Assembly (NCBI GenBank): GCA_964019425.1
Contig: OZ025782.1
Coordinates: 744,001 to 808,000 of the forward strand
Direction of reading: 5' to 3'
DNA length: 64,000 nucleotides
Origin: Flectonema sp. DT1601
Taxonomy: Eukaryota > Euglenozoa > Diplonemea > Diplonemida > Diplonemidae
Position 1 is the first letter of the stretch. Every line of letters begins with the position of its first letter. The position numbers and the translations under genes are program-made. Below are positions 37,039 through 64,000 of this stretch, piece by piece. Below the pieces are notes generated by a model. The model was not told where the DNA came from. It saw only the letters and a program-made list of their open reading frames with translations, and did not search any database.

Positions 37039-38589
37039 ATGTTCAGCCGAACTGCTTTTCGCTTCTGCGCTGCAGCAAAAGAAAATGTTTTGATTCTGTG
37101 CACTGGAAACAGCTGCAGAAGTCACATGGCTGAAGGAATAATTAATAAGTTCGCAGGAGAGAAGTATCAAGCAGTATCAGCAGGAACAAAGCCAACAGGA
37201 TACGTTCATCCTTTAGCAATTAAGGCTTTGAATGAGATTGGTGCGGATATTTCACACAACACATCAAAGCACACAGATGATGTAAAGTTAGAAGACGGAT
37301 ATGATATTGCTATTACTGTTTGTGACAATGCTTTAAGAGATAAACCAGAATGGTTGAAAGACTCTATTCACATCGGTTTTGAAGATCCAGCTGATGCCAA
37401 AGGAAGTGAAGAAGAACAACTCGAAGTCTTTCGTAACATCAGAGATGAGATTCAACAAAAGATCGTCAGCTATCTAACTCTCAGACAACAGCGTAGATCA
37501 GCTCACACGTCAGCAGATGCGGATTACGATCCAACATTCGATTCTGTGAAGGATTATTACGGAAAGGTATTGTCCACTAACAAGGACTTAAAAACAACTG
37601 CGTGCACAGCATTTGACAGACCTCACCCGATTATTATCGATGCTATTAAAAAGATTCCTGATGCCGTCACAGAGAAGTTTTACGGATGTGGAACACCTCT
37701 ACCTCTTGGTATTAAAGACCTTACTATCTTAGACCTTGGATCTGGTAGTGGAAGAGATGCGTACGTTGCATCTCAACTTGTTGGTGAGAACGGAAAGGTA
37801 ATTGGAATTGATATGACTGACGAACAATTAGAAGTAGCTCGTGCTTCAGCTGAACCATTCACCAAGTCATTAGGATACAAGTCTTGTAACATGGAATTCC
37901 GTAGTGGGTACATTGAATACCTTGACAGAGCTGGTATCGAATCAGAGACTGTTGACTTAGTTATTAGTAACTGCGTTCAGAACCTTTCACCTGACAAACC
38001 AAGAGTAATCAGTGAAGCATTTAGAGTACTAAAACAAGGAGGAGAGTTTCACTTCTCTGATGTCTACAGTGACAGACGTCTACCTGAGAAGGTAACTTCT
38101 AATGAAGTTCTTTGGGGTGAATGTATTGCTGGAGCTATGTACACTGAGGACTTCATTCGTGAGGCTCAGAAGGCAGGTTTTGATGATCCTCGTGTGTTAG
38201 CTGCTACAGAGATAATAGTTCAAGACCCAGAGCTTAAGGAGATCTGTGGAGAAGCCAAGTTCTACTCGATTACCTACAGATTGTTTAAGCTCCCAGAGAT
38301 GCTTGAAACCAAGTGTGAAGACTACGGTCAGTTCGCAACTTACAAGGGAACTATTCCTGGGCATCCAAACAGTTTTACTCTTGATGACCATCACAAGTTA
38401 GAAACTAACAAACCATTTCTAGTCTGCGGTAACACCGCTGCAATGTTAGGTGAGAATGGCGTCAGTTGGTTGTCACCACATTTTGACATCCACGGTGACC
38501 GTAGTGCTCACTTTGGTTTGTTTGATTGTGGACCATCACCAGTCACGACACCAGCTGCATCCGCCCCTGCGGGAGGTGCCTGCTGCTAA
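37039..38589 (+). CDS. Arsenate reductase-arsenite methyltransferase fusion (ArsC-ArsM)
   Basis: Single exon, 516 aa. Residues 16-152 are a low-molecular-weight-phosphatase-type ArsC: P-loop CTGNSCR (Cys21-Arg27), then TVCDNA (Cys95) and FEDPAD. The third shuttle cysteine, which usually follows as CP about seven residues on, is replaced by KP. Residues about 170-480 are an ArsM SAM-dependent arsenite methyltransferase: LDLGSGSGRD for SAM, and all four As(III)-binding cysteines in TAC (189), YGC (217), SNC (312) and GEC (362). The C-terminus is GGACC, as in several ArsM proteins. The N-terminus MFSRTAFRFCAAA may target mitochondria. It would reduce arsenate and methylate the arsenite formed. 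A bacterial origin of both halves is likely but not shown. Confidence 0.92.
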   Translation: MFSRTAFRFCAAAKENVLILCTGNSCRSHMAEGIINKFAGEKYQAVSAGTKPTGYVHPLAIKALNEIGADISHNTSKHTDDVKLEDGYDIAITVCDNALRDKPEWLKDSIHIGFEDPADAKGSEEEQLEVFRNIRDEIQQKIVSYLTLRQQRRSAHTSADADYDPTFDSVKDYYGKVLSTNKDLKTTACTAFDRPHPIIIDAIKKIPDAVTEKFYGCGTPLPLGIKDLTILDLGSGSGRDAYVASQLVGENGKVIGIDMTDEQLEVARASAEPFTKSLGYKSCNMEFRSGYIEYLDRAGIESETVDLVISNCVQNLSPDKPRVISEAFRVLKQGGEFHFSDVYSDRRLPEKVTSNEVLWGECIAGAMYTEDFIREAQKAGFDDPRVLAATEIIVQDPELKEICGEAKFYSITYRLFKLPEMLETKCEDYGQFATYKGTIPGHPNSFTLDDHHKLETNKPFLVCGNTAAMLGENGVSWLSPHFDIHGDRSAHFGLFDCGPSPVTTPAASAPAGGACC

Positions 38590-44887: not shown

Positions 44888-45244
44888 TGTTAAATTATCG
44901 TTATGTTGTTTTACATTTGTATTTTACGTACAAACACGAACAGTTAACCCCCCGAGCTTGTTTTCGTCAGCATCGTGCCTGCAACTAATAAAATAGTCGA
45001 TTGACTCACAAAAACACAGCAAACCCTCCCTACACGCGTAAGCTGACGACCTTACAACAAGTTAGGTATTTCTTTTTGTAAATAATAACCTTGATTAGCA
45101 GTAGTGTATTGTACACGATGAATATTCTCTTCTCAGTAGACATGACATTCAACGATGTGGTTTGTTGGAGTGAAATTATCCGTCCGTTGAATATTGGTAA
45201 TTAAAGCTGTCGAATTACTATTTTCTTTACAGGAAGGAAAAACG
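44888..45244. other. Intergenic spacer
   Basis: This 357-nt spacer holds the presumed 3' UTR of the paladin-like gene and the acceptor TTTTCTTTACAG (AG at 45232-45233), 11 nt before the next ATG. Nothing else is recognised. Confidence 0.55.
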
Positions 45245-48200
45245 ATGGTTTCCTTTAAGAGTGCGGCTGTTGCGCGACTCTTTGCAGTTGCGATTGTGGG
45301 GTGCGTAGCACAGCAAACACCAGTTCCGCTGACTCCTTCACCACCACAGCAGACATCAGTCCCTAACACACCTGCTCCACCTCGTCAGACACCAATTCCT
45401 CTTACGGGCATGCCAACGGGTGTTCCAAATACAAATGCTCCACCACGACAGACTTCAGTTCCTGATACTGTGTCGCCATTCGCATTTCCACCCACTTCAG
45501 TTCCAAATACAAATTCACCGACCTTTATATCTCATGTCCCTCAAACGCCATCACCGGCAGCACAGACACCTGTTCCTCTAACAGTAAGTCCTTCTTACAC
45601 GCAGGGTCCTAATTCATTCGGGACTCCTACTCCAGGTGGTACCTTAGCTCCACTACCAGTTACGACTCCTGTTCCGGATACGTCATCACCAGCTATTCAG
45701 ACTTCTGTTCCTATTACAAGTGTTCCATTACCGCAGTCACCTGTTCCTGTAACTACTTCACCTGCTTTGACACCTGTTCCTATTACGGGATCTCCTCCAT
45801 TTCAAACACCCGTTCCTATAACAGAAGTACCTACACTTGTACCAGTGACACCTTCACCACCTATGCAGTCTCCTACTCCAATGACACCTTCACCACCTCG
45901 TCAGACTCCTGTTCCAAATACGCCTTCACCAGTATGTATTATTGTTTTACTTTATGTGAGTAGTTGAGATAATGCTTAGAGTCATGTTGATGTTAAATAA
46001 CAATCATTTTACTAAATCAAACAGACTTTAATCCCTACGGCCGTGCCAACAGCAGCACCAACTTCAGTTCCTACCACGGTGCCAACTGTTGTTCCAACAG
46101 TTGCGCCAACAGCTGTGCCAACAGTAGTACCGACTAACACTCCGGGTGCTCCACCTACTGCCGTACCAACGAGTGTTCCGATTCCGCCAACTGTCGTTCC
46201 GACAGCTGCGCCAACAGCTGTGCCAACAGTAGTACCGACTAACACTCCGGGTGCTCCACCTACCGCCGTACCAACGAGCGTTCCGATTCCACCAACTGCC
46301 GTGCCGACAATGGCGCCAATGCTGACGCCTGTTCCTGTCGTTCCAACAGCTGTACCAACAGCTGCGCCAACAGCTGTGCCAACAGTAGTACCGACTAACA
46401 CTCCGGGGGCTCCACCTACCGCCGTACCAACGAGTGTTCCGATTCCGCCAACTGTCGTTCCAACAGCTGCGCCAACAGCTGTGCCAACAGTAGTACCGAC
46501 TAACACTCCGGGGGCTCCACCTACCGCCGTACCAACGAGTGTTCCGATTCCGCCAACTGTCGTTCCAACAGCTGCGCCAACAGCTGTGCCAACAGTAGTA
46601 CCGACTAACACTCCGGGTGTTCCACCTACCGCCGTACCAACAAGTGTTCCGATTCCACCTACTGCCGTGCCGACAATGGCGCCAATGCTGACGCCTGTTC
46701 CTGTTGTTTCAACAGCTGTTCCAACAGTAGTACCGACTAACACTCCGGGTGTTCCACCTACCGCCGTACCAACGAGTGTTCCGATTCCACCAACTGCAGT
46801 GCCAACAATAGCACCAATAACGCCTCTTCCGACCTCCGTACCAACAACCGTCCCAACGTCGGTGCCAACTAATACCCCGGGTGTCCCACCCACCGCCGTG
46901 CCGACATGGGTTCCAACGTCGGTGCCAACTAATACCCCGGGTGTTCCACCAACCGCCGTGCCAACAACCGTCCCAACGTCGGTGCCAACTAATACCCCGG
47001 GTGTCCCACCCACCGCCGTGCCGACATGGGTTCCAACGTCGGTTCCAACTAATACCCCGGGTGTTCCGCCTACTGCCGTGCCAACAACCGTCCCAACATC
47101 GGTGCCAACTAATACCCCGGGTGTTCCGCCTACTGCTGTGCCGACATGGACTCCAACGTCAGTGCCAACTAACACCCCGGGTGTTCCGCCTACTGCCGTG
47201 CCAACAACCGTCCCAACATCGGTGCCAACTAACACCCCGGGTGTTCCGCCTACTGCTGTGCCGACATGGACTCCAACGTCGGTGCCAACTAACACTCCGG
47301 GTGTTCCGCCTACTGCCGTGCCAACAACCGTCCCAACATCGGTGCCAACTAATACCCCGGGTGTTCCGCCTACTGCTGTGCCGACATGGACTCCAACGTC
47401 AGTGCCAACTAACACTCCGGGTGTTCCGCCCACTGCCGTGCCAACAACTGCCCCAACATCGGTGCCAACTAACACCCCGGGTGTTCCGCCTACTGCCGTG
47501 CCGACATGGACTCCAACGTCAGTACCAACTAACACTCCGGGTGTTCCGCCTACTGCCGTGCCAACAACTGTCCCAACGTCTGTGCCAACTAACACCCCGG
47601 GTGTTCCGCCTACTGCCGTACCAACGTGGACTCCAACGTCAGTGCCAACTAACACTCCAGGTGTTCCGCCCACTGCCGTGCCAACAACTGTCCCAACGTC
47701 TGTGCCAACTAACACCCCAGGGGTTCCGCCTACTGCTGTGCCAACATGGATTCCAACGGTTGTGCCAACAACGGCAGTACCAACTAACACCCCGGGTGTT
47801 CCTCCTACTGCCGTGCCAACACGAGCTCCAACAGCAGCTCCAAGTACTCCAACGCCAACCTCACCCCCAGTTCAGGAAAAGATCTGTCTTGTCCCTACGC
47901 CTGACCGTGACTGCACAAATAAGAGCGCCGTTCCATGCGTCCTACAAGACGCTTATGTTGATATGGTAGTAGACGGCTTGAGAGAAGACTTGCAGATTAC
48001 TGTCAACGAAACGGCAACTGTTAACAACAACTGCGACACAAGTTCGGCGTGTGATGCGGCGGGAAGTTGTGAGGTTGAGGTTTCAATTCCAAGCAGATCA
48101 TTATCTAAGTATGTATTACTAATTTATTTTATTGTACTTATCAGTAATTTGTTTATTAATCACGATGAGACTCTGCTCTGTACCTACTCACAATAAACAG

Positions 48201-61982: not shown

Positions 61983-62413
61983 TAAAAGCATTTTTTTTCC
62001 GGAACCTACTGCATCTTATGTGACGGCGACACGGTGAACTTTTTACGTTTTTCTCGCAGAAGATCGCAACTACGTTAATCATAAGTGCATCGGATCCTGG
62101 TTAGCCGTTATGGTTGAGGGTTCTTCTCTCTGCTCTCACAAGTTGAAAGAGCAAAGGAGAGGATTAGAAGTAAGTGATTATCCCTGCCGTGCGAGTACGT
62201 TACCCAACTTGAGACACTCAGTAGTCTTCTTTGTTTAAGGTAACACAATTCAAAGCGTTTTTAACACGTTGTTAAGTTGCTTTGTCAACTTTATAACATG
62301 ACAGATTGCAACTATGTTGGGTGTCACTGTTGTCTTGCGATAAGTTTTTTTTAGTGATTTCTAAACCGTAATTATCTATTTTTTACAGTAATAGATCATC
62401 AGAGGAATTAAAT

Positions 62414-64000
62414 ATGTGGCGGTCGGCATACCTGCTGATGTGCACAGCCACCGCCTCTGCTGCTGACTTCCGATTGTATGGAGCCAACACCGACGCAGGT
62501 CGTGTAGAAGTCCTTTATAACGAAACCTGGGGGAATATATGTTATGGAGAACACTGGGGTATGAGTCAGGCTAATGCTATTTGCAGGAATATTGGTTTTG
62601 CAAAGGCCATGGCTGCTGGGAAATGGGTTGCTGGTGGGATCAAGGAACAATTATTTTGGGTTGGTGAGAATGAAAAGGAGTGTGAGGATGTCAACTGTCT
62701 TACTGAGAATTGGCCACCACCAGAAGAAGGTTACAATTGTGATCACGCTGCGTTCGTTGCGTGTGTCAGCACAGGATCAGAACCACCAGCGGTATCGGGA
62801 GAGATTAGTATAAAGTATGGACAAAATGCGAGAGCTTCAAGAAATGAAACTCTTACAAAAAGATCTCAATGCACAAAACAATCAGAAGTATCATCTTGTT
62901 GGTATTCTGACATCCCAAACCCATTCGAGGACATGCACTCTGCCTTCGTCTACGACATCTCCGCAGACGCTAATGTAGTCATGCAGAATGTTTATAAAGA
63001 AATTTGTACGAATGAAACTGCTCGAGAAGTTCTCTACGAACTGTTCAAAAACAAACAACTAACTGCTAACGCCGTTGGTATCAACTTGAACAGAAGTCTG
63101 TTGGAAGGTTCTGACAGATGGGCTCGTCAGAGTACGATGGATATCACAAAACTATTTGTAGAAACAAATGAACATCACGACTTGCATTGGGACATTGACG
63201 AGTCTCAAAGACATAGTGAGCCTCCTCAAGACACTCTCAGTAAGGATTTACGTGATAATGGAATAGCGATGGTTGAAGACTACGGTATCCCAGATACTGA
63301 TATTGATAAAATCATGAATCTCGCGAATGAATTAATGTCTCCTCCGATCGATGAAAACCTCACCTCATCCGTGAGTGGCGGTGCTATAATGACTTCTCGA
63401 GTTCAGTTGCCTGCTATTGAGAAGTTGCTTCAGAACTCTTCAATCATTGACGCCGTCAGCAGCTATCTTGGTGATGATGTCACACTAAATGGTTATAAGA
63501 TTACTCGCCTTTCTAATAATCTTCAAGAAGGAAATCAATACATTGCAGGTAAGTGGCATCATGACCGTGTAGGACGTCGTATAAAAATGTTTATATTTCT
63601 TCATGACATCGACTGTGAAGAAGGTCGTCCAACATTAGTTGCTCAGAATACCAACAATATTTTATTTTATAAAACTGAATCATTCCCTCACTCGAGGTTT
63701 AACGATGATTGGGTTAGATCTAATTATAACATAACTAAGGCATGTGGTAAGAAGGGAGGTGGGTTCTTATTCGATACTCACACCATCCATAAAGGAACAG
63801 AGTTTGGAGCATTAGAAAGAACGACTGTGATTATTGAGTTCCATAACACAGTGAAATGTCCTTTCGTAACAGAAAACAACTTTGGATTACCATGTCCATC
63901 AGGGGATTCATTTATGGTAAGTAAAAGATTACAAGAGAGATTCTTACTACCGGATGGTACTTATGAAACAGCAACGAGACATTCTATTGCTGCGGAACCA
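62414..64000 (+). CDS. Secreted SRCR-Fe(II)/2-oxoglutarate dioxygenase fusion (3' partial)
   Basis: The ATG lies 25 nt after a TTTTTTACAG acceptor, and the frame stays open to the window edge (529 codons). Residues 1-17 are a signal peptide. Residues about 19-122 are a scavenger receptor cysteine-rich domain (GRVEVLYNETWGNICY, ANAICRNIGF, CDHAAFVACV). After a roughly 200-residue linker with several N-glycosylation sites there is a PhyH/prolyl-hydroxylase-like barrel: iron ligands His382-x-Asp384 in WHHDRVG and His459 in DTHTIHKG, with 2-oxoglutarate-binding Arg469. No transmembrane segment is seen so far. An extracellular or secretory-pathway hydroxylase guided by an SRCR binding module is inferred; the substrate is unknown. 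Confidence 0.82.
   Translation, partial: MWRSAYLLMCTATASAADFRLYGANTDAGRVEVLYNETWGNICYGEHWGMSQANAICRNIGFAKAMAAGKWVAGGIKEQLFWVGENEKECEDVNCLTENWPPPEEGYNCDHAAFVACVSTGSEPPAVSGEISIKYGQNARASRNETLTKRSQCTKQSEVSSCWYSDIPNPFEDMHSAFVYDISADANVVMQNVYKEICTNETAREVLYELFKNKQLTANAVGINLNRSLLEGSDRWARQSTMDITKLFVETNEHHDLHWDIDESQRHSEPPQDTLSKDLRDNGIAMVEDYGIPDTDIDKIMNLANELMSPPIDENLTSSVSGGAIMTSRVQLPAIEKLLQNSSIIDAVSSYLGDDVTLNGYKITRLSNNLQEGNQYIAGKWHHDRVGRRIKMFIFLHDIDCEEGRPTLVAQNTNNILFYKTESFPHSRFNDDWVRSNYNITKACGKKGGGFLFDTHTIHKGTEFGALERTTVIIEFHNTVKCPFVTENNFGLPCPSGDSFMVSKRLQERFLLPDGTYETATRHSIAAEP

Follow-up and report, generated by a model that had tools for sequence, protein, structure and literature searches.

In LOXL2, an enzyme that cross-links matrix proteins, four SRCR repeats precede the catalytic domain at the C-terminus, as described in PMC6629125. 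In the present study, we analysed a gene of comparable plan in a 64,000-nucleotide stretch of the genome of Flectonema sp. DT1601, a diplonemid and thus a marine unicellular flagellate (GenBank assembly GCA_964019425.1, 89.5 Mb in 92 contigs; contig OZ025782.1, C3:744001-808000), and this whole stretch is called the window. The gene starts at 62414 on the forward strand, and reading on beyond the window end takes it to 65144. It encodes 884 residues with a leader, one SRCR domain and two Fe(II)/2-oxoglutarate (2OG) oxygenase barrels of the PhyH type. Like LOXL2-4, this would be a secreted protein joining SRCR to an oxidising enzyme, but LOXL2-4 are copper/quinone amine oxidases with four SRCR, whereas one SRCR and two Fe/2OG barrels are present here. 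The parallel with lysyl oxidases, drawn in a first-pass annotation of the window, holds as an architectural analogy and not as homology, and no LOX domain was matched by Pfam in the window fragment, in the complete protein (P0047) or in the other family proteins scanned. Collagen prolyl and lysyl hydroxylases are Fe/2OG oxygenases that act on matrix proteins in the secretory pathway; they differ from the present protein in subfamily, and neither the window fragment nor the scanned family proteins gave a match to a P4H-type Pfam domain. The known enzymes of the PhyH superfamily (phytanoyl-CoA hydroxylase, EctD, proline hydroxylase H11 and GriE) are to our knowledge single-domain and non-secreted, whereas our protein has a leader, an SRCR domain and two barrels. 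No report of an SRCR domain with two PhyH barrels was found in our searches of an open-access library, subscription papers lying outside this coverage, and the main text of PMC10161547 holds no occurrence of SRCR, scavenger, dioxygenase, hydroxylase or 2-oxoglutarate. The architecture is a new one, assembled from known enzyme classes.

The window part of the gene (62414..64000, forward strand, as for all features of this gene) encodes residues 1-529, and the reading frame stays open past the window end. Residues 1-16 (62414..62461) form a leader that is signal-peptide-like by sequence and hydropathy, and hydrophobic leaders likewise stand at the N-termini of the relatives. The SRCR domain follows at residues 23-117 (62480..62764), scoring 37.5 bits against Pfam PF00530 (curated cut-off 26.1) and matching PDB SRCR chains with a best E-value of 1.7e-29. 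Its six cysteines (Cys 43, 57, 90, 95, 109 and 117) give the six-cysteine, group A-like pattern, and we take the disulfide bonds to be those of that group; the SRCR domains of the relatives P0002 and P0003 are without the middle cysteine pair. A linker, helical in the AlphaFold2 model (residues 130-265, 62801..63208), leads into barrel 1 at residues 269-510 (63218..63943), which was assigned as a PhyH-type Fe(II)/2OG dioxygenase from the AlphaFold2 model, its fold matches and its invariant residues. Its HxD motif is H382-H383-D384 (63557..63565) and its distal histidine H459 (63788..63790), and R469 (63818..63820), the putative 2OG-binding arginine, stands 10 residues past H459. In fold comparison of the model, the closest solved structures were proline hydroxylase H11, EctD, GriE and SnoN. 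Barrel 1 has the PhyH-type fold, and its four catalytic residues are complete. The first-pass annotation had described a leader, an SRCR domain and a barrel with complete HxD...H and Arg sites in one open frame that runs off the window; all of this is confirmed, and the joining of SRCR to a 2OG oxygenase in a protist occurs within one gene. It had seen a single oxygenase, and in this it was right about barrel 1, but a second complete PhyH barrel lies beyond the window.

In this distal part, a small beta module (about residues 532-600) precedes barrel 2 (about residues 700-875), which has H756, D758, H850 and R861, as judged from Pfam and motifs. Against Pfam PhyH (cut-off 22), barrel 2 scored 25.4 bits at 757-800 in P0047 and 29.2 bits in the relative P0001, and two PhyH stretches apiece were found in P0003, P0050 and P0051. 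The best PhyH stretch falls on barrel 1 in P0003 (231-412) and in P0050 (329-516), and each of these proteins, taken whole, passes the cut-off; none of the six proteins scanned was matched by NCBIfam. The full-length model of P0001 reached a pLDDT of 83.3 and a pTM of 0.67, and its barrel 2 region lies mostly at pLDDT 80-98. Since the matches in fold searches with this model were all taken up by barrel 1, the fold of barrel 2 is read from Pfam and the motifs. For the second model, alignment A3 was used, in which some N-terminal residues are misaligned in the barrel-2-only rows; alignment A4 was excluded for misplacing the beta module. A resemblance of the beta module to the DM9/DUF3421 lectins was considered, and this identity was not supported, as all 13 pieces searched were unmatched at E <= 10. 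A search of PDB chains with the profile of the module was equally without a match at E <= 10.

Three protein searches yielded a family of at least 54 proteins (7987 candidates scored), all of which were classified: at least nine have both barrels, at least 24 barrel 1 only and at least 21 barrel 2 only, these counts being lower bounds. The order seen in the window gene occurs in at least six fused proteins (P0047 itself, P0001, P0002, P0003, P0048 and P0050), and the order beta module-barrel 2-SRCR-barrel 1 in at least three (P0049, P0051 and P0052). The window order recurs in at least five further proteins. The family reaches beyond a single protist group, with members in diplonemids, in Chrysophaeum taylorii (a pelagophyte) and in Durusdinium trenchii (a dinoflagellate). 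P0048 is a Diplonema papillatum protein, and we read the prefixes of P0050 (Rhum) and P0051 (Hpha) as the diplonemids Rhynchopus humris and Hemistasia phaeocysticola, so that one of the three reversed proteins would be a diplonemid transcript. The closest protein of the same architecture among the matches listed is transcript-derived and 76% identical. Both halves also occur on their own, each with a leader when inspected by eye. P0010 of Chrysophaeum taylorii and similar algal proteins share the leader, the SRCR-linker-barrel 1 half and the same CPSGD end, and differ in having no barrel 2; P0010 has its own leader, ends at the CPSGD motif and looks complete, and the label of P0028 describes its 580 positions as a complete ORF. 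Other single-half entries are fragments: P0017, for example, is almost identical in sequence to the final part of P0052. In two proteins with barrel 1 only, further parts are attached. P0020 of Durusdinium trenchii, which may be a gene-model fusion, combines SRCR-barrel 1 with a DAO oxidoreductase domain (163.6 bits), so that here too this half would be joined to a second oxidising enzyme. In P0021, barrel 1 has no SRCR and comes after a part that weakly resembles an FkbM methyltransferase (18.7 bits, short of the 22.7 cut-off).

The barrel-1 tree was built from 25 rows, with P0020 to P0025 excluded, five of these six having been long-branched in a first tree. The six window-order proteins and P0051 formed a clade (96/95), and P0049 and P0052 were placed elsewhere. 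A single clade of the three reversed proteins was rejected for barrel 1 (p-AU 2e-68), and a clade of the six window-order proteins without P0051 had a p-AU of 0.32. In the barrel-2 tree (28 rows), the same seven proteins came together with the partial P0026 (94/91, not starred), and holding the seven alone as a group was not rejected (p-AU 0.32). From these trees, the order changed or the fusion arose on at least two occasions. The reversed order may be ancestral, with a rearrangement in most diplonemids, or the fusions may have been independent.

Taken together, these results lead us to lean, with slightly better than even confidence, to a secretory-pathway oxygenase whose two active sites oxidise one glycoconjugate or matrix protein held by the SRCR module. 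The protein would enter the secretory pathway with SRCR, barrel 1, the small beta module and a distantly related barrel 2 in that order. The SRCR module, perhaps with the beta module, would hold the substrate, and both active sites would hydroxylate or otherwise oxidise it, sequentially or at two types of site, in the lumen of the endoplasmic reticulum (ER) or Golgi before or during export. What the sequences show directly is the domain order, the two sets of four catalytic residues, their conservation, the presence of the parts together on transcripts and their fusion in either order, whereas secretion, catalysis, the site of action and a substrate common to both sites are inferred. Each of the two sites seems equipped to bind iron and 2OG, and SRCR, a protein- and glycan-binding module, is the likely holder. 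The placement in the secretory pathway follows the analogy with the lumenal collagen hydroxylases. The leaders on both stand-alone halves would bring both into the same lumenal or extracellular environment, and fusion in both orders speaks for a substrate or pathway shared by the halves; the opposite domain orders of the relatives suggest that the parts act together on one target.

Several observations weigh against this lumenal two-site oxygenase. Extracellular 2OG and Fe(II) are in short supply, which bears on the site of action, and no ER-retention signal was seen in the protein. The 10 N-glycosylation sequons do not amount to a significant excess, since the shuffle mean was 6.3 and 9% of shuffles reached 10 or more. 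Pfam PhyH is unmatched over barrel 1 of the window protein itself, and the pTM of 0.67 of the P0001 model limits what it says about the mutual orientation of the halves. When the profiles of barrels 1 and 2 were compared by hhalign, the match was not significant (probability 0.7, E 0.085), and the barrels were therefore rejected as recent duplicates, with HxD and the distal histidine nevertheless in register in the alignment. Finally, proline hydroxylase H11, EctD, GriE and SnoN use small molecules as substrates, so hydroxylation of proline in peptides is not specifically indicated. It is the SRCR module alone that favours a protein or glycan, and the nearest folds of barrel 1 point the opposite way.

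This last point is also an argument for a different account, which we consider rather unlikely, in which the secreted enzyme acts on a small molecule such as an amino acid, lipid or nutrient and SRCR merely tethers it. The amino-acid and natural-product enzymes nearest to barrel 1 are consistent with it, as is the amino-acid-oxidase-like DAO domain of P0020; fold does not reveal substrate, however, and SRCR modules are generally known to bind proteins and glycans. More improbable is that one barrel is catalytically silent and the other performs the chemistry. Paired or tandem barrels with an inactive member are known in Ofd1/Tpa1 and TlxI/J, and a TlxIJ structure was among the fold matches, but the window protein and all nine fused proteins retain the four catalytic residues in each barrel, the barrel-1 arginine of P0051 being displaced by an insertion. 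It is hardly credible that errors in assembly or gene calling created the fusion: P0017 and P0020 show that fragments and possible gene-model fusions occur among the entries, but exon 1 is an uninterrupted 875 codons in the assembled contig, and the independent transcript-assembly proteins P0001, P0002, P0003 and P0050, in the same order, carry SRCR and barrels in a single ORF, as does P0051 (EukProt TRINITY names), so that two separate genes, the alternative raised in the first-pass annotation, are rejected for the window architecture.

With regard to origin, relatives of barrel 2 were found at 27 bacterial loci in genome_contigs (E-values relative to the candidates only), many of Acetobacteraceae type, with Amphritea and Paraburkholderia ferrariae also among the 27. 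The five scanned were all above the PhyH cut-off and keep HxD, His and Arg. Like barrel 2, these bacterial PhyH proteins (Amphritea, Belnapia, Rhodovarius, Paraburkholderia ferrariae and others) have the LNxxGLH helical lead-in together with the full set of catalytic residues, but they consist of one barrel in about 340-390 amino acids, without SRCR or beta module. In Amphritea atlantica DSM 18887 (L008 2452-3477) the relative is in two adjoining open pieces. For barrel 1, no bacterial source was found in genome_contigs with profile A1 (59 pattern matches, none confirmed). The scans of viral_contigs for a viral origin gave no relative either, none of the 66 (A1) and 139 (A2) pattern matches being confirmed. 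In Paraburkholderia ferrariae (L022 33-5524), the barrel-2 relative lies between two Capsule_synth genes, near ManC. Relatives of these two capsule genes were seen at none of the other 26 bacterial loci, with about 3 kb of each flank examined. A capsule link was not used as evidence, because it concerns one of 27 loci and the weak ManC-like match at L011 (22.1 bits) is insufficient.

At the 5' end of the gene, a T-rich tract with a terminal AG (62380..62388, forward strand) lies 25 nt upstream of the ATG and is a possible (trans-)splice acceptor, trans-splicing being a feature of euglenozoans. At the 3' end, the frame would be open until 65284 in the absence of splicing. Comparison with the C-terminus of P0001 (GGVRRRNPFHE) points to a 76-nt GT-AG intron at 65041-65116, so that exon 1 would end at 65040 and exon 2 (65117-65144) would encode RRRNPFHDE and then a stop. 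Such an intron fits PMC12621601, which gives a median of 74 nt and a predominance of GT-AG for Rhynchopus humris introns. When the genome was searched with the 529-residue window protein (E <= 0.01), the gene itself and one SRCR-only match (L002) were obtained. The latter (L002 1312-3321, forward strand) encodes a second SRCR protein, composed of a brief N-terminal segment, a run of hydrophobic residues, a single SRCR and regions that are rich in Cys and look extracellular; no oxygenase was seen within the sequence part examined.

Elsewhere in the window, Pro/Thr-rich repeats of the VPTSVPTNTPG type lie at 45194-48196 on the forward strand, in frames that begin with a leader-like start and are apparently split by introns; the first of these had no Pfam match. 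The earlier idea that the oxygenase modifies this Pro-rich product is unsupported: the frames (about 45.2-48.2 kb) lie 14 kb off with other open frames between, and no evidence was found for its prolyl hydroxylation. One frame at 37039-38589 on the forward strand combines LMWPc (51.4 bits, phosphatase/arsenate-reductase-like) with Methyltransf_31 (108.1 bits), perhaps an arsenate-reducing and arsenite-methylating fusion. No RNA family match was found within the 64-kb window. The forward strand carries 22 of the 24 window frames of at least 200 amino acids, the remaining two being in repeats or low-complexity sequence, and this strand bias resembles the one-directional gene clusters typical of Euglenozoa.

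It is possible, though doubtful enough to be put forward tentatively, that this gene represents the founder of a secreted two-active-site oxygenase family of marine protists, each member pairing a recognition module with two different PhyH catalysts. Its halves, which also circulate separately, would have been put together repeatedly and in either order, and jointly they would carry out two-step oxidation of surface or matrix material as a protist counterpart of the SRCR-guided lysyl oxidases by other chemistry. Paradiplonema papillatum is genetically manipulable, as stated in PMC12621601, and together with its genome copy P0048 this makes the idea testable. Fusion in both orders, in lineages that stand apart on the barrel-1 tree, is strong 'Rosetta stone' evidence for a shared target of the SRCR-guided and the second oxygenase. 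If the proposal is true, protists would own an SRCR-oxidase modification of extracellular material that is independent of the animal lysyl oxidases.
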